From the IMG/VR virus record IMGVR_UViG_3300025669_000194, positions 1-23,779 of that record: 23,779 bases of DNA; one strand, written 5' to 3'. Below are positions 1,803-20,228 of this stretch, piece by piece. Under the pieces are notes generated by a model. That model was not told where the DNA came from. It saw only the letters and a program-made list of their open reading frames with translations, and ran no database searches. The translations under genes and the position numbers were made by a program. This DNA comes from a virus. Numbering within the stretch: position 1 is the stretch's first letter; each line of letters opens with the position of its first letter.

Positions 1803-4193
1803 TTAACTCCTTGAGTAAGTCGTCGTTATCTTTCTTTTAACTATAGTCTTAAGTGCCGAGCGATACTCCGCGTTCTGCCTGTCAATGCTATTCGACATCG
1901 CGGTGATAGCCCTACTGATATTAATCTGGGACGATATCTCTCTGGAATAACCACCAGCTTGGTTGAGATACGCAGTGGCGTTTGATAGCTCCCTGCCAGC
2001 ATAGACACCGTACTCGGTAGCTGGCCGAGACAATTCCATGTACCCTTTGGCCTGGGATAACATCGAACCCGCCGTCTGTAGCTGTCGAGCTGCGTACCCG
2101 CTATGCTCTGCGGTCTCCTGGTCCAGCGCCATGTAGCCTCTTGCCTGATTGAGATATGTACCAGCCGTTTGTAATTCCCTGGCCGCAAAGGCCGAATGCT
2201 CTGCTGTTACGGCATCCAGAAACATATACCCACGGGCCTGATTGAGCAAGCCTGACGCATTCTGTAATTCCCTTGCGGCGACGGCTCCGTGTTCAGCAGT
2301 GACGCCTTCAAGAGCGAGATACCCACGGGCCTGATTCAGCAGAGCCGAAGCGGCCTGTAGTTCCCTTGCAGCAAACCCACTGTGCTCAGCAGTCTCTTGG
2401 TCCAGTGCCATAAACCCCTTGGCTTCATTAATGGCCGTACCAGCAGCTTGAAACTCTCGAGCTGCAAGATTACCGTGAGTATTCACTTCCTGGTCCAAGC
2501 TGAGATACCCGCGAGCCTCTTCAATGTAGCCTCTTGCGGCCTGTAAGTCCCTTGCGGAGTATTCCCCGTATCGGCCTGACGTGGTTGACAGGTTCAGGTA
2601 ACTGCTTGCCTGCTGCAAACTATTATTGGCGGCCTGTAACTCTCGCGCAGCCGTACCGCTGTAATCGCTCTGTGGCTTGCCGCCGATATTAATCTTATTG
2701 ATAAATGACCTGGCTGAATCAAGGTCAGACAATGCCTGTCCTATTCTGGGAGAGACATCGTCCACCGCTGAAAGAGCGGTAGCACGTTCATCATCAATCT
2801 GTGTCCGCCCGCTATCCAAGTCTGCGACTGCCTGGTCAATCTCTGCCTCAACCTTGGCGAGTGCCGCGATGGCTTCCGTTCGCTTATCACCGACTAACGC
2901 CCGCCCGGCAGCAATGTCACTAACTGCCAGGGTGTATTCTGCCCCAACTTTCGTCACAGCGGCGATTGCCTCAGTCCGCTTATCTCCTATTAAGGCTCGT
3001 CCGGTACTTAGGTCGGAAATGGCGAGAGTGATTTCTGCCGACATCGCATCAATAGATGCCACGGTTTCCGTGCGCTTATCGCCTATCAGGGCTCGACCCG
3101 CTGCCACATCACTGACTGCCAGCGTTAGCTGTGCCGACATCGCATCAATGGAAGCGATGGACTCGGTTCTCTTATCACCTATCAGGGCGGCGCCGGTACT
3201 CAATTCAGCTACCGCCAGATTAATCATCGTGGTCATGTTATCGACGGCGGTAATCGATTCGGTGCGCTTGGCACCTATCAGAGCTCGGCCAGTAGTGAGG
3301 TCCGACACAGCCGTCTCAATTTCACTGGCCATACGGTCAACAGATGCGACTGCCTGGTCGTACTTGGCTACGATATATTCGCGCCCAGAGGCAAGGTCGG
3401 CCATAGCCTGGGTTAACCGTGCGCCCATATTATCTACAGCCGTATTGATATCGTCGACGCGGTCAATGGCCCCACTGAGCCGATTGCGTCCTTCATTCAG
3501 CCACTGATAAGATGCCCTGACTACGACACCGAGGACAAGGACCCGTATCTCTTTGGGGTTGAGGGTCGTGGTTTCATCGGTAAGAGTGTGCACCTTATTA
3601 CAATAGATACGCGCCACGTAATCGCGGTACTGGGTAGCGTCCACGGTATCAACGCCAGCATCAATGCTCTTTACCGTTTCTTCCAGCACTAGGGTGGTGT
3701 CATCGGTAATGGAAAAGACACGATACCACCGACTGGTGCCCGATGGTTTAATGAAATACTCGGTAGCCAGTTCTCCGTCAAAGTCAGTGCCAGACCCTGT
3801 TACCGTGGCAGAGCCTGAGACGAATGTTACAGTGCCGGTAAGCGTACCGTCCGACCCCGTATCCCCGAAGGCTCCACCCATGTCAACCTCGATGGTCTCG
3901 TTGTCCAAGACATTGAAGTTATGATAGTTCCTCGGAGTCCCACCTACCGGATACTCAACCCGGTCAATTTCCAGTAACCCATCAATCTCGCTTATGTCAA
4001 GCATCTTCGACCCGTATGTTACCAGCGCCGTCTCCACAGCCTGAAGGGGGGATACGCTGGAAATGTCAACTACAACGTCGCCGATGATGGTCCTCATCTG
4101 GTTATCCGTGAAGTCGTTGGTTACATCAATGGCCACAGAGTCTCGAAGGGCCTGCCGTGCGTCGGCGATGATGGCATCAATATTACTCGCCAT
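1803..4193 (-). CDS. Repeat-rich virion protein: connector-like N-terminus plus two coiled-coil repeat arrays
   Basis: This is a 796-residue protein in three zones. Residues 1-250 resemble the small head-tail adaptor proteins of phages at the extreme N-terminus (DARQALRDS..TDNQMRTII). They also include a beta domain at about 115-172 (GTVTFVSGSATVTGSGTDF ... TTLVLEE) of a type often found in phage connector and tail proteins. Residues 265-488 are seven 32-residue repeats around GRALIGDKRTEAIA. Residues 512-728 are seven 31-residue repeats around AARELQAAxxLLNQARGYL, with an eighth partial copy. Both arrays look helical and should give long coiled-coil rods or a bundle. The short C-terminal tail is basic (IVKRKITTTYSRS). 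I infer a neck-anchored fibre or an elongated connector; a tape-measure-like role is an alternative. An ATG preceded by a weak GGGGG supports the start. Confidence 0.85.
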   Translation of the reverse strand: MASNIDAIIADARQALRDSVAIDVTNDFTDNQMRTIIGDVVVDISSVSPLQAVETALVTYGSKMLDISEIDGLLEIDRVEYPVGGTPRNYHNFNVLDNETIEVDMGGAFGDTGSDGTLTGTVTFVSGSATVTGSGTDFDGELATEYFIKPSGTSRWYRVFSITDDTTLVLEETVKSIDAGVDTVDATQYRDYVARIYCNKVHTLTDETTTLNPKEIRVLVLGVVVRASYQWLNEGRNRLSGAIDRVDDINTAVDNMGARLTQAMADLASGREYIVAKYDQAVASVDRMASEIETAVSDLTTGRALIGAKRTESITAVDNMTTMINLAVAELSTGAALIGDKRTESIASIDAMSAQLTLAVSDVAAGRALIGDKRTETVASIDAMSAEITLAISDLSTGRALIGDKRTEAIAAVTKVGAEYTLAVSDIAAGRALVGDKRTEAIAALAKVEAEIDQAVADLDSGRTQIDDERATALSAVDDVSPRIGQALSDLDSARSFINKINIGGKPQSDYSGTAARELQAANNSLQQASSYLNLSTTSGRYGEYSARDLQAARGYIEEARGYLSLDQEVNTHGNLAAREFQAAGTAINEAKGFMALDQETAEHSGFAARELQAASALLNQARGYLALEGVTAEHGAVAARELQNASGLLNQARGYMFLDAVTAEHSAFAARELQTAGTYLNQARGYMALDQETAEHSGYAARQLQTAGSMLSQAKGYMELSRPATEYGVYAGRELSNATAYLNQAGGYSREISSQINISRAITAMSNSIDRQNAEYRSALKTIVKRKITTTYSRS
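2010..2660 (-). repeat. 93-bp coding repeat, seven full units (31 residues each)
   Basis: The array encodes residues 512-728 of the 796-residue protein. Units begin at residues 512, 543, 574, 605, 636, 667 and 698, and an eighth degenerate unit starts at 729. The consensus is about SGFAARELQAAxxxLNQARGY followed by LALDQETAEH. The units agree better in protein than in DNA, so the array is old or under selection for the residues. Confidence 0.9.
2730..3401 (-). repeat. 96-bp coding repeat, seven full units (32 residues each)
   Basis: The array encodes residues 265-488 of the 796-residue protein. Each unit follows the pattern SDLSTGRALIGDKRTEAIA then a 13-residue helical segment ending TLAV. 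The central four units are most alike and the outer ones drift, as expected of an array that grows and homogenises in the middle. An eighth partial copy (SDLDSARSFINK) closes the array before the second repeat family begins. Confidence 0.9.
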
Positions 4194-4735: not shown

Positions 4736-5290
4736 TTACATCCCGAAAAATCTTCGTTCAGATTCGAATAGGTCGGCTATCTCTTGGGGGGATAAAGCAC
4801 GATTGTAGATTTTCCAAATACCGGAGTCTCCATCAAAGAAAGAGGCTTCATCACCTAGCGTCACACTACTTCCAGCAAATGGAGTGGCGGTAGTGACAGC
4901 AATAAAGTTCCATGCTGACAATGTTATCGCTACTGCGGCGGCAACTGCATTAGTAAAGAATGTCGGTGTAGACCATCCGGTAGCCGTCATGTCACCACTA
5001 GCGTCCATCTCAATGCTATGGGTTCCCCCATCAAAGTCAGCTATACTCCGAGTAGTAATATCATCAGGATATACCCAAGCACAGACTGTCTGAATATCTT
5101 GGCCTAGGTCACCAATAGCAATCTCACTGGTACTCCCATTAAACCCGGCTACATACAACCCACTGGCCAGACGAGTATAAGTAATATTAGTATCGGTGCA
5201 GACGTTACCGAAGCGGCTACGGTCATAGCAATGGTCCGGCTCCACGAAGGTCTTTTCCTGTTCGAATACTAAACCGCGAGTTAATGACAT
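4736..5290 (-). CDS. LamG/concanavalin A-like virion protein, copy 2
   Basis: The protein has 184 residues and the pattern of LamG/concanavalin A-like lectin folds. It has a Pro/Asp N-terminus (CYDRSRFGN), a core strand pair with VCAWVYPDD, and the typical closing strand and helix IYNRALSPQEIADLFESERRFFG. Such domains in phages usually bind sugars or pack in spikes and capsid decorations. It starts two bases after the stop of the upstream paralogue, with GGAG nearby. The shared closing motif shows the two arose by duplication. I infer host-surface binding or virion decoration. Confidence 0.8.
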   Translation of the reverse strand: MSLTRGLVFEQEKTFVEPDHCYDRSRFGNVCTDTNITYTRLASGLYVAGFNGSTSEIAIGDLGQDIQTVCAWVYPDDITTRSIADFDGGTHSIEMDASGDMTATGWSTPTFFTNAVAAAVAITLSAWNFIAVTTATPFAGSSVTLGDEASFFDGDSGIWKIYNRALSPQEIADLFESERRFFGM

Positions 5291-5292
5291 AT

Positions 5293-5937
5293 CTAAACTC
5301 CGAAAAAAGCGCGTTCTTGAGTGAATATTGCCCGTATTTCAGCGGGGGATAAGGCTCGGTTGTAGATACGGTGGATAGCTTGCTGTCCAGTAAAGTACAT
5401 AGACAACCCCGCACCTATTCTATTTATTGCAAAATACTGCCCAGCCACACTGGGAAACGTGTCCGAGCCAACGGCCACACTATCTTGACAAAAATAAATA
5501 TTCAAACCAGCGATAGTAATATCATAAGAGTGCCATTCAGTATTACTAGTTATTATTGTACTGGTAGTAACATTACCATTAACACTACTCTCCGCAGTTA
5601 ATCTTGCACCAGATGTCAATACAATTGAAAGACCAGCATTTGTTGTTGAGAACCCAAAACAGTAATCCGTGTTTCCAGTATCGCTACGTTTTGCCCACCA
5701 ATGGATGGTAAGTTCTCTATTCATATAATAGATTGGAAACAACAGAAGACGCGTGCTTATATATGCGGTTCCGTCAAAACTGTTTACCCATAAGCCGCTA
5801 GGAAGCTGAACCGCAGTCACATTCGTCCAAACACCGTCATTACCCATCCGGCTTCGGTCAGTTAACTTCGTTGGTATGACACCACCAGTGTATGGCTTTT
5901 CACAGAGAACAAGTCCTGAGCTTTTACCGTCCATCAT
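5293..5937 (-). CDS. LamG/concanavalin A-like virion protein, copy 1
   Basis: The protein has 214 residues from the ATG-ATG pair at 5937/5934, where GGAG precedes the start. A longer reading to 5976 would need an extension inside the upstream gene and is less likely. It has the LamG-like order: opening DRSRMGNDG, strands with LTIHWWAKR and EWHSYDITIAGLNIYF, and the closing IYNRALSPAEIRAIFTQERAFFGV. It overlaps the upstream gene's end by 14 bases. The closing motif nearly matches that of the next gene, so the two are tandem paralogues. A lectin-like or structural decoration role is inferred. Confidence 0.8.
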   Translation of the reverse strand: MMDGKSSGLVLCEKPYTGGVIPTKLTDRSRMGNDGVWTNVTAVQLPSGLWVNSFDGTAYISTRLLLFPIYYMNRELTIHWWAKRSDTGNTDYCFGFSTTNAGLSIVLTSGARLTAESSVNGNVTTSTIITSNTEWHSYDITIAGLNIYFCQDSVAVGSDTFPSVAGQYFAINRIGAGLSMYFTGQQAIHRIYNRALSPAEIRAIFTQERAFFGV

Positions 5938-7683: not shown

Positions 7684-8028
7684 TTATTTTTTGTGAGTTT
7701 TTCTGTGCGTCGAAAGACCACCCTTCGATAAACATATTTTACCACAGACGGAACACTTAAATTCCTCTGCGGTTACCGGCGCCTCTGTCGTGGTTTCCGT
7801 TTTGGTATCCGACTCAGTAGTAGTGGTGTCGGGCGGAGGCGCTGTCGTCTCTTCCTTGGCGGTCGTGGTGGCGTTCTCTGGGGCCAGCTCGACAACTACA
7901 TCAGCCTCTGGTTCCATTGAGACGAAATTCTTGGGAGATATTACCGTGCTCCCTACTATTTCGTATTCCTCGCCAGCAATCCTCATTCGGTCGCCGACAT
8001 AGCAATTTCTTAAACATCGATACTTCAT
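7684..8028 (-). CDS. Small protein with Thr/Pro-rich linker and C-terminal C2H2 zinc finger
   Basis: The protein has 114 residues in three parts. Residues 1-48 are a compact N-terminal domain (MKYRCLRNCYVGDRM, then AGEEYEIVG) like small phage proteins near capsid genes. Residues about 49-87 are a low-complexity linker of Thr, Glu, Pro and Ala. Residues 92-112 are a textbook C2H2 zinc finger: C92, C95, twelve residues, H108, three residues, H112, followed by a basic end (THKK). In phages this could bind DNA or RNA or serve as a protein-interaction knob; the linker suggests the finger is displayed away from the N-terminal domain. AAGGAG lies about 12 bases before the ATG, a longer spacing than elsewhere. 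Confidence 0.8.
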   Translation of the reverse strand: MKYRCLRNCYVGDRMRIAGEEYEIVGSTVISPKNFVSMEPEADVVVELAPENATTTAKEETTAPPPDTTTTESDTKTETTTEAPVTAEEFKCSVCGKICLSKGGLSTHRKTHKK

Positions 8029-9593: not shown

Positions 9594-10595
9594 TTAGCTC
9601 ACCGCTGATTCGGTGGAAAGCAGGTTATCGCAAACATGAATCGGGGCGCCCAGGAAACTGACCATCGGGTCGCCGGAAGGATTCGCCAGCGTCAGGTTCA
9701 CATTCGCTTTATTCTGCGCCTGCATATGCAGGTACATGGCAATGGTCTTGTTGGTGTACCAGTAGGTCTTACCAAGATTGGCAAGGCCATCGGACGGCCT
9801 GGCGTAGTAAGCCCTGAGCATCTTGTCCATCAGGTCAGTGCCAGCGCTGGCGTCAGCCATCAGGTCAGAAACATCGATGTTGCAGATGCGGATGTTGTAT
9901 CGGTAATCCAGTAATGCCATGCCGAGGTTCCACACGAAGTGGGTGCGGAATACCTGGTGCATATTACCACTGGAATCGACTGACGTGACTTCCCCGAGGT
10001 CCTGGGACGTGAGACCGGCCTTACTCGCCTTCGGGTAAATCATGGAACAGGTTTTCTCGCCCCAGGTAATCAGCCATACCGAGGTATTGTCGGAGCCGGA
10101 GCCACCGGCGTCGATTATCTGAGAACCGTAATCGCCGGTCGTGCTGTTGTACCGGGGGGACAGGCCGTGCATCTGCTCCGGGTCGGTGCCCTGGTTGCCA
10201 TAGAAGATGGCGGTGGCGCAGTCGGAGCTGAGACCGGCAATGTATGCGTCATCCTCGGAAGCGCGGAATGCGGCGGCATTACCACCGAGATTGGCGACAG
10301 CGGTATCCGCCTCGGAATACGCTTCGAGCAGGCCGCAAGCATCATCGCGCTGCACGGTGGTGCTTTTCGACGCGGCGACACCGTGGTTCAGCTTACGCCA
10401 GGTGCCCGAAGGCAACGTGGCTCGCTGAGTGCTCCGATGCCCAGTCGTCAGGTTGCCTTCCATGACATTGGCATCGTTTACGATGGGATTGGTGGCGGCC
10501 AGTACCTCAACGATACTGTCAATTCCACCTCCGGGTTTCTCTCGCTTGATGTAGTCAAGCAGGGTTAAGTACGAACTGCCTATTGCGGTAGCCAT
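9594..10595 (-). CDS. Major capsid protein
   Basis: The protein has 333 residues with strong resemblance, from memory, to the podovirus major capsid proteins related to Bbp17 of phage BPP-1. Shared patterns are NVMEGNLTTGHRSTQRATLP, GTWRKLNHGVAASKSTT, DDACGLLEAYSEAD, FRASEDDAYIAG, AIFYGNQGTDPEQMHGLSPR, and the late CNIDVSDLMADASAG. These proteins have the HK97 fold and build the icosahedral shell. The best ribosome binding site in the window, TAAGGAGGTG, stands eight bases or so before the ATG, as expected for the most abundant protein. It lies between the scaffold and the cement genes. Confidence 0.93.
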   Translation of the reverse strand: MATAIGSSYLTLLDYIKREKPGGGIDSIVEVLAATNPIVNDANVMEGNLTTGHRSTQRATLPSGTWRKLNHGVAASKSTTVQRDDACGLLEAYSEADTAVANLGGNAAAFRASEDDAYIAGLSSDCATAIFYGNQGTDPEQMHGLSPRYNSTTGDYGSQIIDAGGSGSDNTSVWLITWGEKTCSMIYPKASKAGLTSQDLGEVTSVDSSGNMHQVFRTHFVWNLGMALLDYRYNIRICNIDVSDLMADASAGTDLMDKMLRAYYARPSDGLANLGKTYWYTNKTIAMYLHMQAQNKANVNLTLANPSGDPMVSFLGAPIHVCDNLLSTESAVS

Positions 10596-11321: not shown

Positions 11322-14300
11322 CTATTCGCCTGTGTATGGGCTCGTAGCCTCCCTGATTCCTGTGATTGTTTTCTCTGCGGTAGTAGGGGTAGCCTTTGTC
11401 CGTCTGTTCTCTATTGATGTCCATCCGAACGCTATCTGTCCCCACGTATCAAGTGGCCTGTTGTTCCACCTAATGCGTCGCTTTTCGGCTGCGGTGGCTG
11501 CCTTAAGATACTCTTCTACATAAGCGCTCCATACCTCCCTCGTTGGTACTCTTTCCCAATCATCCTTTGAATAGGGCGTACTATCCAGCAACCCGATGTA
11601 GACATTATCGTAGAAAGATGGGTGCTCTTGCAAGTACCAGTCATCCTCATACCAGGTTCGCTTCTTCCCAGTGGAATCCTCTGGCCAAGAAGCCGGTATC
11701 CCCTCAACAGATAAAACCTTGAAATCAGTATAGCGGCCTATGTACGTTTCTGGAACAAGCTCTTTATATCCAGTCCTCTTCACATCAGCAACCCCGAAGT
11801 CACTGAGTGTTCCATCCTTATTGAAGAGCATCGCCTGCCTGGCTATATCCCTGGGTGATTCGCCTGTTACAGTATTCAGCGGGTAGTCTGGCACGTAGTA
11901 CGCGGACTTCTCATCGGTCAGGCCGTCCAGTCGCTCGTAGTCATCTTGAAAATCATCGTAGATATTGTCGTATGCTACCACCGGCACAAGTTCTGGATGC
12001 GCCAATGCCTCACCGGCTCTACTGTGACCAATCGTCTCACTCATGAATGTGGCAAAGTGCTTATTCTCAGGAGCTGCAAGAAACCTGTCGCGGCGATGCC
12101 CGGCTAAAGGCAATTCCTCGTAGCTCATATAGGAATCAACAAATCCATCAGGGACATTACTCACCTGATGAGCGTGCTCGATACCATAAGCGTCGCGCTG
12201 TATCCTGGCGACACGGTAATCGTTATCTCTGTCCAGCATATCCTCACGGGCCAATGAAGCCAGCAGGTCCCTCTTCTTGCTCGCGGTAATCGTAGACCAC
12301 CACTGAGGATTATAACCGGCTGGAGGCTGTAAGGCGTCCACCTGGTCGTCGTCCATGTTGTTGAAGCGCTCAGATATCTCAGTCGTATATTTGGTGTCCT
12401 CATCACGGTACTCAATATCGATGCTAAGCGACGGTTCATTCCACTCAGTCATATTTGATGTTACCAGCTTGGCTGCCCTGGCTGTAGCAAATAGCTCTGG
12501 GTGCTCAAAGAAGAAGATCTTGACTTCAGCACTGTTACCGGACCCGGAGTCGATGGCAATCTGCTCTCGCTCCGCCCATAACTCCACGTCGTCAGCACTA
12601 TATTCCTTACTGATGGCCTGCATCTTCGCAAGACTTATTCGGTATCCGTTGTTAGGATACGCCTCATCGAATGCTGCCCACCTATCATCGATATCCTTTA
12701 TGTAAAGTTCACTGCTGTTATCTTTCAGTTTGTCATAATACTCTCGTTCGTCGCGGTACGTAGCCCCGAGCTGGTAATATTCTACCGCATACGAAGGCTT
12801 GGCAAATCCATACCAATCACGCAATGCTTCGTCGGACGCAAGGACCAGCAGCGATTCATGGCTCTGGGCGCCGTACATCGTAACCGCTTCCTCTCGCAGG
12901 AAATAATTACTTATAGACTCCTCATCAAGAGCCAGCATAGATTTACCGGCATCAGTGATAAGAGGGGCTGCTGTTTCCGGTATATCGTATTGCTGTATCA
13001 ATGATTTACTTTCATTATATGCCTCAATGGATAGCACCTTGGCCTGACCCCATACTGCTAGTTGCGCGTTTTCTTTAGGATGTGTCAATAAATAATCCGT
13101 CTTGGGATTGACCCCTATTTCTGGATTTTCCAAAAGGAATTGCGTTTGCTCCTCGGGACCTAACTTCCAATATTGGTCAAGCAACGCATATTGTTTTGAT
13201 GTCATATTGCCTAGTTCAGCCTGCGGGTATTTCCTGTCGAATGCTTTTACAGCATCTTCTCCGGTAACAGTCTTTGTCTTGTATCTCCCGCCCACTAATT
13301 CCTCAATAGTCCAAACAGCATCACCACCCTCGGCCACCAATACTTCCCTGTCCCCCCACTGGCGATAATAATCTTCATACTTTTCGGCATCCAAAGACGC
13401 AGGACTGTGATTAGGAAGCAAGTCGACTTCCCTCTTCAAATCCCTCGCCTCAATTATTACCTTGATTAGAGGGGGATACCCCTTCCTCTTATTTATCTCT
13501 TCGATTGTGACATCCGATAAAACACTCGTTACTTTCCCATAAAGGTTATTGGTTCTGAAATAGTCCACATCTTCGGAATAAAGCGGCGATAACTCACTGG
13601 TGGGTAATCCCAAATTCCTGACCAGTTTATGAAAATAAGTGTTATCCAGTTTCATCAGATTGACGCCAACAAACTGCGCAGCTACCTGCTGCGCTATCTC
13701 CTCTGGCCACTCATCTCTTCGAACTCCCCCTATGCCTTCGCCAATGGATAGAGGAACCGCACCCTCCAATTCATAGAGCAATCCCCTAATGATATTCTCA
13801 GGGAACTCGCCTTTGATTATTTTGGTCCCGTAATAATCTCTGTTCAATAGCAAGTTTATTTGTGTCTTAATCGCAGGCGTAATACGGTTGACGATAAACA
13901 TTGGCATTCCGGCAAATGGCACAGGGAACGGGATTCCCTCTACCTCCTGCGGGTATATTGCTCTAAAGATAGACCGATAGGAGCCGCCCAAGGGTATCCT
14001 GAAATCCCCAACAATGACACTGAGGAACTTCCCATTGTAAGGGTCGGGATTGACTGCATCCCAAACGGCCTTCCATATCTCATCATCATCTGCCCCTTGT
14101 GCTATTGCAGACGCAACGGCACTGGTAACAGAGGTAGCTACCACTGAACCCGCCAGCAGAGTCAAATGCCGAATGGCTAAACGCTCCTGATTAGAAAGTT
14201 TCTGCCCCGTGATTAACTTGGCATACCCCATACTGCCTTGAGATATCAAGCTGGCAGGTTGCCTTATAAAAGAATACGAGGTGGGGAACGCCCTCAACAG

Positions 14301-17300
14301 CGCACTTCTTTTTTGAGATTGCCCCAACTTGGCGGGAGCCACCAGCGGGTATACCTCTCGCGCTACCTCAATGGCAGCCACCTTCGCTTCTATCTCAGGC
14401 ACTCCGCTTTCAACTAATCGTGTCCATGTCCTGTTCCACAGATTGAAGGTGCCTCGCGTTACTGTAACATAAGTCGTCTCGGTAAATCGGTCAAACCCCG
14501 GTATCTTGCTCAGGAACCCCGCCGCATACTCAGCAGGAGTCCCGCTTAATTGCCGCCCCATCATGGAACTAAACTCCGCGAATTCTTCCGGGTGCGCGAT
14601 AATATCGTCCATTAACCCATCTACGGTGATGGAATGTTTGAAGTCCCTGTTCTCAAAAGCCTTTGATACTGCTCCGCCAAAAGCCTGGAGACTGCCAACC
14701 GGGTCGGCCTGGACACCTATCAATCCCTGAATAGCAAATGGCGAAAAGTCACCTGAGAACGCTCCGGCCCTCCATCTCTCTATAAACCGCAGAACAGGAT
14801 TGTTAGTTGTCTGCCGCGCGGCGACAATATATTTGGCCTCCTTCGCAGTAAAATACCGATACAATCCTTCCTGAACAAAGACAAAGGGCTTGAGATTTGC
14901 AACTTTCCACGCAGGTCTAATCTCCCGAATTTCATCTTTGACTTTCTCTATCTGCGCCTGAATATCAGCTAACTGTGTACCAGCCATAGCCTTTGAGACA
15001 TATCTCCCCGCCTGTAAATAGAAAGCATCATCTAGCTCTATCAAGTCTGCTTCTTCATGAGAAGATTTGAGGAAATTATTGAGAGCCTCGATTTGCTGGA
15101 CGGACAGAACACGCTTGTATCCTTGCAGCCTTTGGAGCCGCTTCCTTAATCCAATCATCTTTTCGTAAAGTTCTGGATGAGTTGTCTCCATGGCTTCGAG
15201 CTTGGTCAATCCACCAGCCACTTCCTTGAACGTCACTCCGGCAGCAGCCTTTGACTTAAACGAGTCCATCCCCTCAATAAGTTTCTTCACATCCAGTTCC
15301 GGGGTGAATGGAGTTTTGCCCCCCATCCTATCGCGGGCTGTTTTCCATACACGGGTCTTCCCGCGCCCTGATGCTACCGCCCTTGTCTCACTTCCAAGCC
15401 ACTCAATTACATCTTCGGACACATCCACATTCGACAGGAACGCCCCGCCAGGATTGGGTTCAAACTTGCCAATCTCTGCGCCGTATTCATTAACCACATA
15501 ATCCAGTGTAGTATTATTATGCTCATTGATTGCTTTAACGGCGGATTCTTGAGTCGGTGTTAATTTATATAGTTGCGGGTTTTGGACTATATCAAGGAGT
15601 GTGCCGGTTATCGGATTATCAGCCTCCTTAGTTGTGCCGATAAATTCTATATCAGATTTCTCTCCCCTTAATACATTCTCCCCGAATACCCCGTTTAATA
15701 TCTTGAACAGGGGGAGACGGGTAACAATCTGCTTGGTGTTAACCTCGGACAATGCTCCTACTTCTGCCACCTGAGCAACCAGCAAATGCTCCGCCTCTGT
15801 TCCTATTACTTCCAATGCCGGCCTTTCAAATCTTAAAGCCGCACCAAGACCAGGAATACGTTGCGCCAGCTTGTTTAACGCACCCGGCCTATCCTGTTTA
15901 ACAATCTCTCGTGACTGATGAATTATCTTGCCGCGCCTTTCTGGTTGAACAGGAACATCGGGTATTCCTACCGTCTGAGGGACAGGCTTTGACGGAACCG
16001 CCTTAACAGGCTCCCCGCGAAAGGCAATCAGCACATCCTTAAATACGGTCAGGTGGTCGCCGGTATTATAGGCGTCGTAGCCAAGGTATTTTGCCGTGGC
16101 ATACTGCACTTCGGCATAGGCTTGCGTCCCCTGGCTCCCGAAGTTGGCGCCGAACTCCTTGCGGAACTTGGCCATCAACCACTCTTCCGCATCACGAAAT
16201 CGTTCCTGCTCTTCCTGGGATGCAGTCTGCGGGTCATATACCGATAGATTTTCATTGATAATATAAGGAGTCCCCGATACTTTGGCATCCGCTTCCTGCC
16301 CCTGCGAGTAACCATACCAGCGTTTAGCAAACCATCCTTCCTTAAAATGCGGCTTATATTCCTGCGCGAATTGTAGTTCCGGCTGAGTTTGTCCGCCGCC
16401 AGCCATCTCTGGCTCTATATGGGTGAGATTAGATTGATTACTGTAATGTGATATCGCTGGTTTCGTTACAGCCGGAATGTGGATAATACGATTATTCGCC
16501 AGGTCATAGATGACATCCTTCCCCTGCGCCCGCCCGATATCAATGGCGGCAGTCTTATCGTCTACGGCAAACACTACATCCAGAGTTGTCTTCCCTTTCT
16601 CGTACCAAGTGCCGACACTAACGCCCTTGCGATTAAGTAAATCAAGATTGGCATTGATGAAATCAGTAATCTGCTGCGGAGTAACATCTCTTCCATCAAA
16701 ATGCTGGCTACGTTCTGCAAAACCTGCAACGGAATAAGCCTTGCGCCTGGCAAGATTCCCGTCATAAAGATTATAGGTAGACCCCACCTCATTTTCTTCA
16801 GCTTCTGGAGCGATCCCTTCTTCGCGAGTATTATGCATAGCTGTTATATCATTAGCTATGGCCGCAAGTTCTTCGGTAGGAGGGATAATCTGTACCTCAC
16901 CGGCCATTCCACGCTCTACCGCGAAGTCGAGCCTCTGCTGAAATGTCATTGAGCCCCACTCAGCCGTATCAACTTCTTTGGTTTCCGCTACTGCTGGAAC
17001 CGCAGTCTTTTCCTCAATATTTATATCCGTAATCTTTATCTCTGTCATCTTGGCAGGAATCTTGTCTGTAGTTATGATGCCCTTATCAACCAAACTACCT
17101 ACTATTGCAGCGCCTTCATCGGTTGCCAAGTCGACGTTAACAGATAATCCTTCAGACTTAGCTATACCGAGGACCTTAAGGTACATTTCAGTGCCCAAGC
17201 CTTGTTCCCTAAGCTCTTCGGATACATTCACTCCCTCAATCTTCATTGTGGTCTCGGTTATTCTGTACTGGATAAAGTTTCCAGTAGCGTCCCCATTGGC

Positions 17301-19472
17301 ATCGTAATCCCTGAGCACTGTGGCTCCTGACTCATGCTGTTCTTCTCTCAAGTTAAGCACTGGTTTACTTGCTGCTATTTCCGGCAGTGTAATCACTCCC
17401 GTTTTTTTATCAATAATACTTGGCAAAAACTCTTCAATCATATCGCGTAACTCAATGTCATCACTCAGATCACGATGCAACGACTTCTTTACCTTGTTGT
17501 AGGTATTCACACTGACGTGTCCGGAGCCAGCCGTAATTGTAACAAGGAGGAATGTTGGAGCGGCCACCTCTTTGAGCGCCTCAAAAGCATTAAGACTCCT
17601 ATCTCGCAAGCCAGCCTTAACCTCAACCCTCGACTGCCCCAATGAAGTAATAGTCTCAGTTCCAATCTCTGTACCATACAACTCAACAAGTTTCGTGATT
17701 ATTCCCTTGGCGATTTTCTTTGTAGCAGTCTTTGCGAGCGGGCGAAATAATACATCAGCGAATGCGAGATTGCTTATCGCCTCCGGGACTGCTTCCCACA
17801 TACCGTACTGAAACGCAAGAGTTCTGAAATCAGCCTTCAGAGTAGCCTCCTCCTCTATACTGATATTGCGACCCTCAGTCTTTTGCATCTCCTCATTCTT
17901 GAGGTCAAGGTATGATTGCATTATCTGATAGTTTGCCATCTGGTATGCAGCCCATCCTGACGCAGCACTGCCTGCAATCCAAGCACCTGCCCTGGTGAAA
18001 GGCGCTACCGCAGCCGCCGCAGCGCCACCAGCCCCCATCGACACAATGGAGAAACCGAGACTCGGTGGAATCTGCGCTATATCGGCGTAGGTTATTGGGA
18101 AAGTGGTCGGCCCTTGCTGCTTCATAGCTAACTCGACAAACTCCGTCGAACTATTATTCGCAGAATCAATCCACTCAGTCATCCAATTTGGATAATTTAT
18201 ATTAGCTCCGCCTTCGCCTCTTAACATTATGAGAGATGCAACGGCCTGCTCTGGAGTCCTAATCAGAGCTTCTCCAAATATCTTAAATGCAGTAACTCGA
18301 TGCTCTCTCCCAGTAGCGGTAAGAGTATACATTTCTTCAGGAGACTTCTCTTCAGCTGACCCGACAAATGGTTTCTGCTCACCGCTTATTACTTTCATCA
18401 AACTTTCAGTAAAAGAAGGTGGCGATTCATACTCGGCTATTTTCCTCTGATACTCAATATCAGTAATCTCTGCCCCAGTATTAACATTACGCCAGGCCAA
18501 TACCTCTTCCTGTGGAACCACCTCTGGATAGAACTCGTCAATCTGCTCTTCCGTGGCGCCGATGGCCAGCAGTAGCTCCTCGGTGTTCGAAGTCCTGCCG
18601 GTGTCAGTAAGTCTCTGAATAAATACCTGCTCGAAGTCCTCATCAGTGGCAAGCCGATTAACAAGGTCATCGACTATACCAGCTTTATCCTCGTCTGGAT
18701 GAGAATCAAGTATCTCGGGAAATACAGCATTCCATACCTTCACCGAGTTCTTCCGGCGCCCCTCCTGTTCTGCTATAAGGGTATCTAATTCTTCATTCGT
18801 AAGAGTCGCGGAGATACCTTCAGGCAGCAACTCGGGATGCTCTTGATAGAAATTCTTGGTGTTCTCCAGGTTCATCGACGCCGGGACGTAAGTGCCGTCA
18901 ACCCAAATATATCCGTAAGGATTGATGGGCTGAGACGCTTCAGACATCGCTTCCGCGTATGCCTCATTACCGATGACATCGCGAACCAACTGCTCCGGCA
19001 ATCCTGCGTCCAGGGCATCCTGTACCGGCATACCAACGAATGGAGCGAGGGCGTCGACCTTCTTGTTCCAGTCGTCAGTGGCCCACGTCTCGTAGTCCTG
19101 CCAGAAATTATCTTCACCCCATTTTACACGAAGTTCATCAGGGAGATTCGGGAGTTTCGTAGCCTCAAAGTCAGCTATTCCCTGGTCGTACTCCGCCTGT
19201 TTCTGGGCATTAGGCACGCGATAAATCGAGAGTTCTCCACCCTGTTTCCAAACCCCATAATCCTCAGGGCTAATCTCGCCTTCGAACCCATCATCGCCAC
19301 CGATGTTGATATCATATAAACCGGCGCTTGCTGTATCGATACGAAACGGTGCGTCCGGGGTCTCATCAAAATGGCTGGTGAGTTCCTCGTTAAATCTGCG
19401 GTCGAGTATTTGCTCGGCTGAATATCTCTTAACCGGGTCCTTAAAGGCTTTATCCAATGAAGATAATGGCAT
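11322..19472 (-). CDS. Giant polyvalent virion protein: GNAT-like, ART-like and LPD38-like regions (2716 residues)
   Basis: This is a single open frame of 2716 codons; AGAGAGG before the ATG fixes the start. Visible parts in order are as follows. A helical N-terminus. A Gly/Ala-rich hydrophobic segment (about 470-512). A GNAT-type motif, ELREQGLGTEMYLKVLGIA (753-771), with the acetyl-CoA loop pattern RxxGLG. A conserved phage domain (893-1000) with the cores KAYSVAGFAER and VSVGTWYEKGKTTLDVVF. An ADP-ribosyltransferase-like region (1006-1152) opening SHYSNQ and closing KYLGYDAY..LTVFKDVLIAF. A long helical region to about 1950 with the hydrophobic LLAGSVVATSVTSAVASAIA and then LLLNRDYYGTKI, as in LPD38 of polyvalent proteins. 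Last, a C-terminus with repeated HPEL-type units. Polyvalent proteins are known as virion cargo that enters the host with phage DNA. I infer an ejected inner-virion protein with effector enzymes; the activities are unproven. Confidence 0.85.
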   Translation of the reverse strand: MPLSSLDKAFKDPVKRYSAEQILDRRFNEELTSHFDETPDAPFRIDTASAGLYDINIGGDDGFEGEISPEDYGVWKQGGELSIYRVPNAQKQAEYDQGIADFEATKLPNLPDELRVKWGEDNFWQDYETWATDDWNKKVDALAPFVGMPVQDALDAGLPEQLVRDVIGNEAYAEAMSEASQPINPYGYIWVDGTYVPASMNLENTKNFYQEHPELLPEGISATLTNEELDTLIAEQEGRRKNSVKVWNAVFPEILDSHPDEDKAGIVDDLVNRLATDEDFEQVFIQRLTDTGRTSNTEELLLAIGATEEQIDEFYPEVVPQEEVLAWRNVNTGAEITDIEYQRKIAEYESPPSFTESLMKVISGEQKPFVGSAEEKSPEEMYTLTATGREHRVTAFKIFGEALIRTPEQAVASLIMLRGEGGANINYPNWMTEWIDSANNSSTEFVELAMKQQGPTTFPITYADIAQIPPSLGFSIVSMGAGGAAAAAVAPFTRAGAWIAGSAASGWAAYQMANYQIMQSYLDLKNEEMQKTEGRNISIEEEATLKADFRTLAFQYGMWEAVPEAISNLAFADVLFRPLAKTATKKIAKGIITKLVELYGTEIGTETITSLGQSRVEVKAGLRDRSLNAFEALKEVAAPTFLLVTITAGSGHVSVNTYNKVKKSLHRDLSDDIELRDMIEEFLPSIIDKKTGVITLPEIAASKPVLNLREEQHESGATVLRDYDANGDATGNFIQYRITETTMKIEGVNVSEELREQGLGTEMYLKVLGIAKSEGLSVNVDLATDEGAAIVGSLVDKGIITTDKIPAKMTEIKITDINIEEKTAVPAVAETKEVDTAEWGSMTFQQRLDFAVERGMAGEVQIIPPTEELAAIANDITAMHNTREEGIAPEAEENEVGSTYNLYDGNLARRKAYSVAGFAERSQHFDGRDVTPQQITDFINANLDLLNRKGVSVGTWYEKGKTTLDVVFAVDDKTAAIDIGRAQGKDVIYDLANNRIIHIPAVTKPAISHYSNQSNLTHIEPEMAGGGQTQPELQFAQEYKPHFKEGWFAKRWYGYSQGQEADAKVSGTPYIINENLSVYDPQTASQEEQERFRDAEEWLMAKFRKEFGANFGSQGTQAYAEVQYATAKYLGYDAYNTGDHLTVFKDVLIAFRGEPVKAVPSKPVPQTVGIPDVPVQPERRGKIIHQSREIVKQDRPGALNKLAQRIPGLGAALRFERPALEVIGTEAEHLLVAQVAEVGALSEVNTKQIVTRLPLFKILNGVFGENVLRGEKSDIEFIGTTKEADNPITGTLLDIVQNPQLYKLTPTQESAVKAINEHNNTTLDYVVNEYGAEIGKFEPNPGGAFLSNVDVSEDVIEWLGSETRAVASGRGKTRVWKTARDRMGGKTPFTPELDVKKLIEGMDSFKSKAAAGVTFKEVAGGLTKLEAMETTHPELYEKMIGLRKRLQRLQGYKRVLSVQQIEALNNFLKSSHEEADLIELDDAFYLQAGRYVSKAMAGTQLADIQAQIEKVKDEIREIRPAWKVANLKPFVFVQEGLYRYFTAKEAKYIVAARQTTNNPVLRFIERWRAGAFSGDFSPFAIQGLIGVQADPVGSLQAFGGAVSKAFENRDFKHSITVDGLMDDIIAHPEEFAEFSSMMGRQLSGTPAEYAAGFLSKIPGFDRFTETTYVTVTRGTFNLWNRTWTRLVESGVPEIEAKVAAIEVAREVYPLVAPAKLGQSQKRSALLRAFPTSYSFIRQPASLISQGSMGYAKLITGQKLSNQERLAIRHLTLLAGSVVATSVTSAVASAIAQGADDDEIWKAVWDAVNPDPYNGKFLSVIVGDFRIPLGGSYRSIFRAIYPQEVEGIPFPVPFAGMPMFIVNRITPAIKTQINLLLNRDYYGTKIIKGEFPENIIRGLLYELEGAVPLSIGEGIGGVRRDEWPEEIAQQVAAQFVGVNLMKLDNTYFHKLVRNLGLPTSELSPLYSEDVDYFRTNNLYGKVTSVLSDVTIEEINKRKGYPPLIKVIIEARDLKREVDLLPNHSPASLDAEKYEDYYRQWGDREVLVAEGGDAVWTIEELVGGRYKTKTVTGEDAVKAFDRKYPQAELGNMTSKQYALLDQYWKLGPEEQTQFLLENPEIGVNPKTDYLLTHPKENAQLAVWGQAKVLSIEAYNESKSLIQQYDIPETAAPLITDAGKSMLALDEESISNYFLREEAVTMYGAQSHESLLVLASDEALRDWYGFAKPSYAVEYYQLGATYRDEREYYDKLKDNSSELYIKDIDDRWAAFDEAYPNNGYRISLAKMQAISKEYSADDVELWAEREQIAIDSGSGNSAEVKIFFFEHPELFATARAAKLVTSNMTEWNEPSLSIDIEYRDEDTKYTTEISERFNNMDDDQVDALQPPAGYNPQWWSTITASKKRDLLASLAREDMLDRDNDYRVARIQRDAYGIEHAHQVSNVPDGFVDSYMSYEELPLAGHRRDRFLAAPENKHFATFMSETIGHSRAGEALAHPELVPVVAYDNIYDDFQDDYERLDGLTDEKSAYYVPDYPLNTVTGESPRDIARQAMLFNKDGTLSDFGVADVKRTGYKELVPETYIGRYTDFKVLSVEGIPASWPEDSTGKKRTWYEDDWYLQEHPSFYDNVYIGLLDSTPYSKDDWERVPTREVWSAYVEEYLKAATAAEKRRIRWNNRPLDTWGQIAFGWTSIENRRTKATPTTAEKTITGIREATSPYTGE
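16017..16457 (-). other. ADP-ribosyltransferase-like domain within the giant protein
   Basis: Residues 1006-1152 have the order of the ART domains of phage polyvalent proteins. They open with SHYSNQSNLTHIEP and a glycine turn (AGGGQTQPE, where GTG is usual). A middle part carries aromatic residues (WYGYSQGQEAD) and INENLSVYD. The end is YATAKYLGYDAYNTGDH followed by TVFKDVLIAF. Such domains move ADP-ribose from NAD to target proteins. H1009, Y1010 and S1011 fit the NAD-pocket start; the catalytic Glu cannot be assigned by eye. Confidence 0.6.
17073..17270 (-). other. GNAT acetyltransferase-like motif within the giant protein
   Basis: Residues 735-800 include the beta strand IQYRITETTMKIEGVNV, then EELREQGLGTEMYLKVLGIA, matching the GNAT motif A (R/Q-x-x-G-x-G/A, acetyl-CoA pyrophosphate loop). 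A later strand (LSVNVDLATDEGAA) and IVGSLVDKGI fit the rest of a short fold. The first strands of a full GNAT are poorly defined here, so it may be a reduced domain. Confidence 0.55.
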
Positions 19473-19647: not shown

Positions 19648-20193
19648 TTACCCCTCCGCAATAGAAAAATCATAATTTTTGTACTCCTTGTTTTCCACTC
19701 TTTTAATTGTGTTACAATTAGCACATAGTACCTGCAATCCTTCTGTTTCTCCATTAATAATATGCTTGTAATAATCTGTTTGATTCTTAAATTGCTTTCT
19801 ATGAGAATTTCCACCGCCATTCTTATGGTCTACTTGCAAAGCCCTCTCATCAGAAAAACCGCACTTCGCACATCTACCACCCAAAACAGATAATGCAGCC
19901 AAGCGTATTTTGCGCCTTAGTCTCCTGCCTGTCAAAATTTTAGCAGCCCTTACCTTCAATTTATTCTTCTTTCCCCACGCTCTTCTGTATTCGAGTTGTT
20001 CTTCCCTATTATTCCAATAACGTTCTTTATCCTCCCTTCGCCTCTCCCCTCCATCAGTTAAACGTTTAATTTTTTGCTGGCTTCTTATCCTTTCCTTATT
20101 ATCTTGACGATATTGCTTCATGTAGGAACGAATACTTTCTTTGTGCTCCTTCCTGTATTTCCTCTTGTACTCTTTAAGCTGCTCTTTATCCAT
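19648..20193 (-). CDS. Free-standing HNH endonuclease
   Basis: The protein has 181 residues from ATG 20193; a TTG six codons earlier has no support. The N-terminal half is a basic, Lys/Arg/Glu-rich helical region with repeated short units (KEYKRKYRKEHKES, IRSYMKQYRQDNKER), probably for DNA contact. The HNH core is at the C-terminus: C108/C111 (CAKCG), D122-H123 (VDHKNGGG), and C157/C160-N161 (LCANCNTIKR). The two CxxC pairs bind a structural zinc ion in this class, and the His acts in metal-dependent DNA cutting. The gene is clearly more AT-rich than its neighbours: 38% and 37% GC in two 60-base samples against 58% in a portal sample, counted by hand. This fits a mobile, homing-type gene inserted between the portal and the next gene. 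Confidence 0.88.
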   Translation of the reverse strand: MDKEQLKEYKRKYRKEHKESIRSYMKQYRQDNKERIRSQQKIKRLTDGGERRREDKERYWNNREEQLEYRRAWGKKNKLKVRAAKILTGRRLRRKIRLAALSVLGGRCAKCGFSDERALQVDHKNGGGNSHRKQFKNQTDYYKHIINGETEGLQVLCANCNTIKRVENKEYKNYDFSIAEG

Positions 20194-20199
20194 TTGTAT

Positions 20200-20228
20200 A
20201 TTATAACGCAAGTGGAGTAGACAAACAA
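20200..20228 (-). promoter_or_regulatory. Possible own promoter of the HNH gene, leaderless start
   Basis: The minus strand has a perfect TATAAT (20200-20205) just six bases before the HNH ATG, with TTGTTT (20223-20228) 17 bases upstream as a weak -35. Transcription would begin at or next to the ATG, giving a leaderless mRNA. This agrees with the lack of any Shine-Dalgarno before that ATG. The local AT-richness makes a chance match possible. Confidence 0.45.

Follow-up and report, generated by a model that had tools for sequence, protein, structure and literature searches.

A probable phage head-tail adaptor with two repeat arrays of equal copy number, proposed to form a matched-arm helical hairpin

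Two repeat arrays in one protein

Why does a single phage protein carry two consecutive, dissimilar repeat arrays, and why do both arrays have the same number of copies? The question is raised by a 796-residue open reading frame (ORF) of a 23.8-kb virus record, which was analysed over its whole length and is called the window here. The genes listed for the window all lie on the minus strand and encode the large terminase, a portal-like protein, an HNH endonuclease, a 2716-aa protein, a scaffold-like protein, the major capsid protein, a Bbp16-like cement protein (PF21190 match), several small and LamG-like proteins and the repeat protein. The major capsid protein is of the epsilon15/BPP-1 kind (PF20911, E = 4e-118). 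We consider it probable that the phage has a short tail and that the repeat gene encodes its head-tail adaptor, with the arrays as the two matched arms of a helical hairpin, and that twelve such hairpins probably point tailward and lengthen the tail. The features of the gene are as follows.

1803..4193, minus strand: whole gene (one ORF), putative head-tail adaptor with a repeat-built helical hairpin, 796 aa.
3528..4193, minus strand: adaptor domain, residues 1-222, with helices 1-2, a beta region resembling a fibre dock and the start of helix 3 (homology to the adaptor of relative L009; fold and Pfam match of an array-less relative).
3654..3848, minus strand: insert of the adaptor domain (residues ~116-180, TVTFVSGSATVTGSGTDF...), a beta module that phage tail-fibre proteins also have (PHROG matches).
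2685..3452, minus strand: array 1 (residues 248-503), eight 32-residue units that would form the outgoing arm and prolong helix 3 (autocorrelation, count from the turn, AF2 helices).
2661..2702, minus strand: predicted hairpin tip INKINIGGKPQSDY, residues 498-511 (conservation, AF2 non-helical stretch).
1941..2684, minus strand: array 2 (residues 504-751), eight 31-residue units that would form the returning arm, predicted as helices of ~30 residues with kinks between them (autocorrelation, count from the turn, AF2).
1803..1940, minus strand: helix 4 of the adaptor bundle and a basic C-terminal tail, portal-embracing by analogy with the T7 and SU10 adaptors (conserved Y...L and C-terminal Y in alignment A4).

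An earlier note on this sequence had described two consecutive, unrelated arrays with a sharp change near residue 500, and all three statements were borne out. Autocorrelation of residues 240-520 at lag 32 gave 47% identity and a mean BLOSUM score of 2.24 (best of 200 shuffles -0.07), and that of residues 500-796 at lag 31 gave 43% identity and a mean of 1.87 (best of 200 shuffles -0.18), both far above the shuffles. The switch occurs at about residue 500, and the local score between the two arrays (42) lies within the range of shuffled sequences (37.7 +/- 6.3). The equality of the copy numbers also stood; the count of seven full copies and a partial one was amended to eight and eight, since the units, counted outward from the turn GGKPQSDY (residues 504-511), are in register in both arrays and the end units are divergent, which accounts for the lower count. 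The repeats have diverged at the DNA level, where Tandem Repeats Finder detected none.

The AlphaFold2 (AF2) model of the protein consists of the adaptor part and of two helical arms joined by a turn. Helix 3 continues into array 1 (helices 213-370 and 375-498), the turn is at 499-506, and the last helix (723-784) connects array 2 with helix 4. The array 2 unit starts with a D-x-P motif, in accord with the kinks of the model. The arms were modelled with low confidence (pLDDT about 50-75; pTM 0.39), and the full-length model matched only generic long coiled coils in the PDB. The arms would pair antiparallel in space; their net charge gave no consistent signal of an inside and an outside.

Some further genes of the window deserve mention. 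Two adjoining LamG-like ORFs (4736-5928, minus strand; Laminin_G_3) may encode carbohydrate-binding virion proteins. A 114-aa ORF (7684-8028, minus strand) ends in a C2H2 zinc-finger-like motif (E = 4.5e-4, under the Pfam cut-off), which is unusual in a phage structural region. The HNH endonuclease gene (19648-20211, minus strand), possibly that of a homing endonuclease, has the portal gene on one side and on the other the giant gene for the 2716-aa protein (11322-19472, minus strand). The latter, located between portal and scaffold, is probably an internal or ejection protein, and a weak GNAT-like stretch at its residues 736-784 falls just below the Pfam cut-off. Relatives have proteins of variable length at the same place (1494 aa in L002, 2166 aa in L091), and that of L091 matches the window protein by BLAST.

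Adaptor domain and probable direction of the proposed hairpin

Direct searches (IMG/VR patterns, phage records, PDB by sequence, Pfam and PHROGs) yielded no homologues of the whole protein or its parts; weak coiled-coil matches, for example to Sec3_CC and Flagellin_C, were taken as compositional. Relatives were reached only via the capsid protein (26 related contigs, several of which carry a shorter homologue of the repeat ORF at the same place) and then via the adaptor alignment. A scan derived from this alignment gave 42 loci, and because its sole pattern lies in the adaptor domain and none in the arms, members were sampled without bias towards arms. Later scans brought more arm-bearing members, and a genome scan with alignment A5 gave one locus. 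The records of BPP-1, Caulobacter Jess A and zth2-2, which have a related capsid protein, did not match the adaptor profile. Family members range from about 190 to 796 aa, and those without arrays (0+0) are adaptors of about 200 to 290 aa. The contig of one 2+2 member, L070 (JAUXIH010000044.1), was binned with a Dehalococcoidia genome, which hints at the group to which the hosts belong. Adaptors of this one family accompany a P22-type coat protein in L091 (7844-8947) and one of the epsilon15/BPP-1 type in the window (9594-10595), so capsid genes have been exchanged next to the adaptor.

The connector-like N-terminus proposed in the earlier note is supported by fold and by Pfam, in both cases through relatives. 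The adaptor domain of the window protein is 54% identical to the 350-aa adaptor of L009. The AF2 model of the 0+0 relative L050 (pLDDT 88) has two helices, a beta domain of six strands, two helices and a tail, and each of its 18 PDB matches at E <= 1e-3 is to a connector or neck chain of a phage, including those of P1, KHP30, GP4, SU10, T4 and N4. L050 exceeds the cut-off of the Pfam family SU10_adaptor (PF24175; 30.3 vs 27 bits), and seven of the 28 aligned members match this family at E <= 0.1 (best 4.5e-07). The Pfam model does not detect the window protein, which was assigned to the adaptor class by fold class and by homology to L050-like members; the AF2 model of the window protein has the same order of elements, a helix bundle with the beta dock between helices 2 and 3. 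The adaptor gene lies among structural genes, between those for the capsid and the tail hub: in the window it comes after the TerL, portal, scaffold, MCP and Bbp16-like genes, and in L009, L089 and L093 a hub-like gene (697-897 aa) directly follows it. The related records that were examined showed no recognisable gene for a tail tube or tape measure, which together with the hub-like gene makes short tails likely.

The beta module of the window adaptor matches phrog_1980, phrog_17834 and phrog_2712 and is absent from L013, L040 and L050. The same VTGSGTxF module is found in phage tail-fibre families and in the hub-like gene adjoining the adaptor gene (L009, 16692-18785; L041, 7076-9778), as if copied between the structural genes of one phage. 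The adaptor domains of L012, L039, L043, L044 and L086 contain an insert of another kind (TATTASHLIDTANAHF... or similar), which is apparently duplicated in L044.

The adaptor fold class is already known. In T7 gp11, the helices form an up-down bundle with the helix 1-2 loop at the nozzle, helix 4 lining the channel and its C-terminus at the portal clip (PMC6702177), and SU10 gp11 is organised in the same way and has a C-terminal embracing loop (PMC9509320). The family shares with SU10 gp11 the fold and the order helix-helix-beta dock-helix-helix-C-terminal tail, and with T7 gp11 the four-helix up-down bundle, the dock domain and the C-terminal segment on the portal. The difference lies in the connection between helices 3 and 4, which is a short loop in T7 gp11 (about 196 residues vs 796 in the window protein) and for which no tandem-repeat hairpin has been described in SU10 gp11. 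According to the layout of these adaptors, the helix 3-4 loop, the site of the hairpin, should face the tail, and a rod that extends helices 3 and 4 does not have to stand out as a fibre. Such connectors assemble as rings of twelve, not as the trimers for which the earlier note had suggested a structure prediction, and by analogy the window protein would form a ring of twelve beneath the portal. In the proposed structure, array 1 would run outward as a prolongation of helix 3, the chain would turn at INKINIGG, and array 2 would lead back into helix 4. The twelve hairpins would then probably point towards the tail and build a helical barrel or cage, which lengthens or sheathes the short tail and carries a conserved tip interface (for the docking of nozzle or fibres) away from the neck. 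The nozzle of T7 and SU10 occupies the space into which the hairpins would project, which counts against this proposal.

The main rival, which we regard as less likely, keeps the same adaptor and hairpin but lets the twelve rods spread sideways like whiskers or a collar, binding the host surface, fibres or the capsid without extending the tail. Matched arms would make a self-supporting rod, no sign of contacts between hairpins was seen here, the conserved tip would serve as a binding site, and LamG-like ORFs are located near the adaptor gene. However, the arms prolong helices 3 and 4 unbroken in the AF2 model, no hinge or spacer was seen at their base, and in T7-type adaptors the deduced position of the helix 3-4 loop is on the tail side.

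Matched copy numbers in the two arms

The earlier note had suggested that equal copy numbers may mean matched lengths, as in an antiparallel hairpin, and had named independent variation of the two numbers in relatives as the observation that would refute it. Three landmarks delimited the arms in each member, namely the conserved base glycine of helix 3, the INKxNxGG tip (or the motif corresponding to it) and a conserved Tyr or Phe in the last helix, with anchors set by hand on aligned motifs. Among the 20 distinct array-bearing members, the counts in array 1 and array 2 are 1+1, 2+2, 4+4, 6+6 or 8+8, and not one member has unequal arms; independent variation was looked for and was absent. None of 100,000 permutations made all counts equal. 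Arm lengths correlate with r = 0.9994 in these 20 members and with r = 0.9997 in 35 members, at a slope of 0.959, near the ratio 31/32 = 0.969. Fifteen members of the family have no more than a short turn (0+0). Two further cases agree by inspection (L109/L110, 1+1; L115, 2+2). The tip INKINIGGKPQSDY is kept even in most array-less members. The equal counts support the matched arms of the proposed antiparallel hairpin.

The equality has persisted through repeated change. On a tree of the adaptor domain, with the arms left out, the copy number must have changed at least 14 times; the window protein (8+8) groups in this tree with two 1+1 members (support 99/99). Close relatives differ by paired indels, one block per arm: 67 and 62 aa between L074 and L072, 64 and 62 aa between L072 and both L043 and L076, and 32 and 31 aa between L017 and L040. 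Counted from the tip, the units that L074 has in excess of L072 are the fourth and the fifth of each arm. The cap units at tip and base are conserved by position between phages, and the middle units are more alike within one protein than between the two 8+8 proteins, which indicates that the middle was amplified separately in separate lineages. As the layout is A8-B8 and not (AB)8, no single contiguous duplication can lengthen both arms by a unit, and equality requires paired events or selection. Under the proposed explanation, one unit of array 1 would face one unit of array 2, so the same number would be required in both arms, and units would be gained or lost in both, often two at a time.

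Counts above two were always even (4, 6 or 8 in L043, L053, L076, L072, L052, L074 and the window adaptor). Among relatives that exceed two units the step is two units in each arm, and 3, 5 or 7 units were not seen in this small sample of array-bearing members. Recent duplication of two-unit blocks, considered as the cause of the even numbers, was not seen in the window protein, whose units resemble each other no more closely at lag 64 than they do at lag 32.

It is very improbable that the arrays are separate rods or spacers whose equal counts come from shared descent or from exchange of the whole hairpin as a cassette and not from a length constraint. Phage genes do recombine, and a swap would be possible at the conserved base and end, but the within-protein likeness of the middle units and the positional match of the cap units mean that the growth of the arms was separate, the single lineage of L072 and L074 shows a difference of two units in either arm, and equality was kept through all the changes counted above. 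A last alternative is a long tail fibre of the usual free-standing kind, or a trimeric coiled coil, whose N-terminus resembles a connector by coincidence. This reading, for which the fibre-like VTGSGT module and the frequency of long helical repeats in fibres might speak, is already disfavoured by the 0+0 members, plain adaptors of ~200 aa that match connector folds and SU10_adaptor, and is hardly credible given that the C-terminus returns to the conserved adaptor helix in every member.

Length constraint and possible tail extension

As regards the length constraint, the closest parallel is offered by the coiled-coil arms of SMC proteins, whose two arms, formed by one chain, pair antiparallel and must therefore match (PMC5344682). 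Equal arm length across homologues, which characterises such hairpins, was found in all 20 array-bearing members. Natural SMC arms fall into discrete length classes in steps of about 100 residues (PMC5344682); in contrast to the adaptor arms, which change by one or two units of 32/31 residues, they are not tandem repeats, and the SMC head and hinge are unrelated to the phage adaptor. In the literature searched, the coverage of which was incomplete, we found no description of a tandem-repeat hairpin with matched counts between adaptor helices 3 and 4. Hairpins of variable length or long helical barrels that extend a ring are familiar from periplasmic adaptors such as MexA/HlyD and from the P22 portal barrel, which have different folds from the adaptor hairpin and are not known to have two tandem-repeat arrays with matched counts.

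An eight-unit hairpin would measure ~40 nm (282 residues from base glycine to tip, x 0.15 nm), and each unit would add ~4.7 nm to the tail, for a total of up to ~40 nm. More tentatively, the twelve hairpins might assemble beneath the adaptor ring into a helical tube with a double wall, in which the paired unit number (0 to 8 seen) would set the length of an all-helical tail extension that replaces tail-tube rings and a tape measure, and growth by two units would reflect the structural period of the tube; we hold this to be possible but less likely than not.

Two dissimilar arrays that change copy number in step, at least 14 times and with no exception seen, represent a clean natural length-matching constraint that is readable from sequence alone. 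Natural versions with 0, 1, 2, 4, 6 and 8 units are available for structural work. If the hairpins do extend the tail, a single gene would adjust the tail length of these short-tailed phages.
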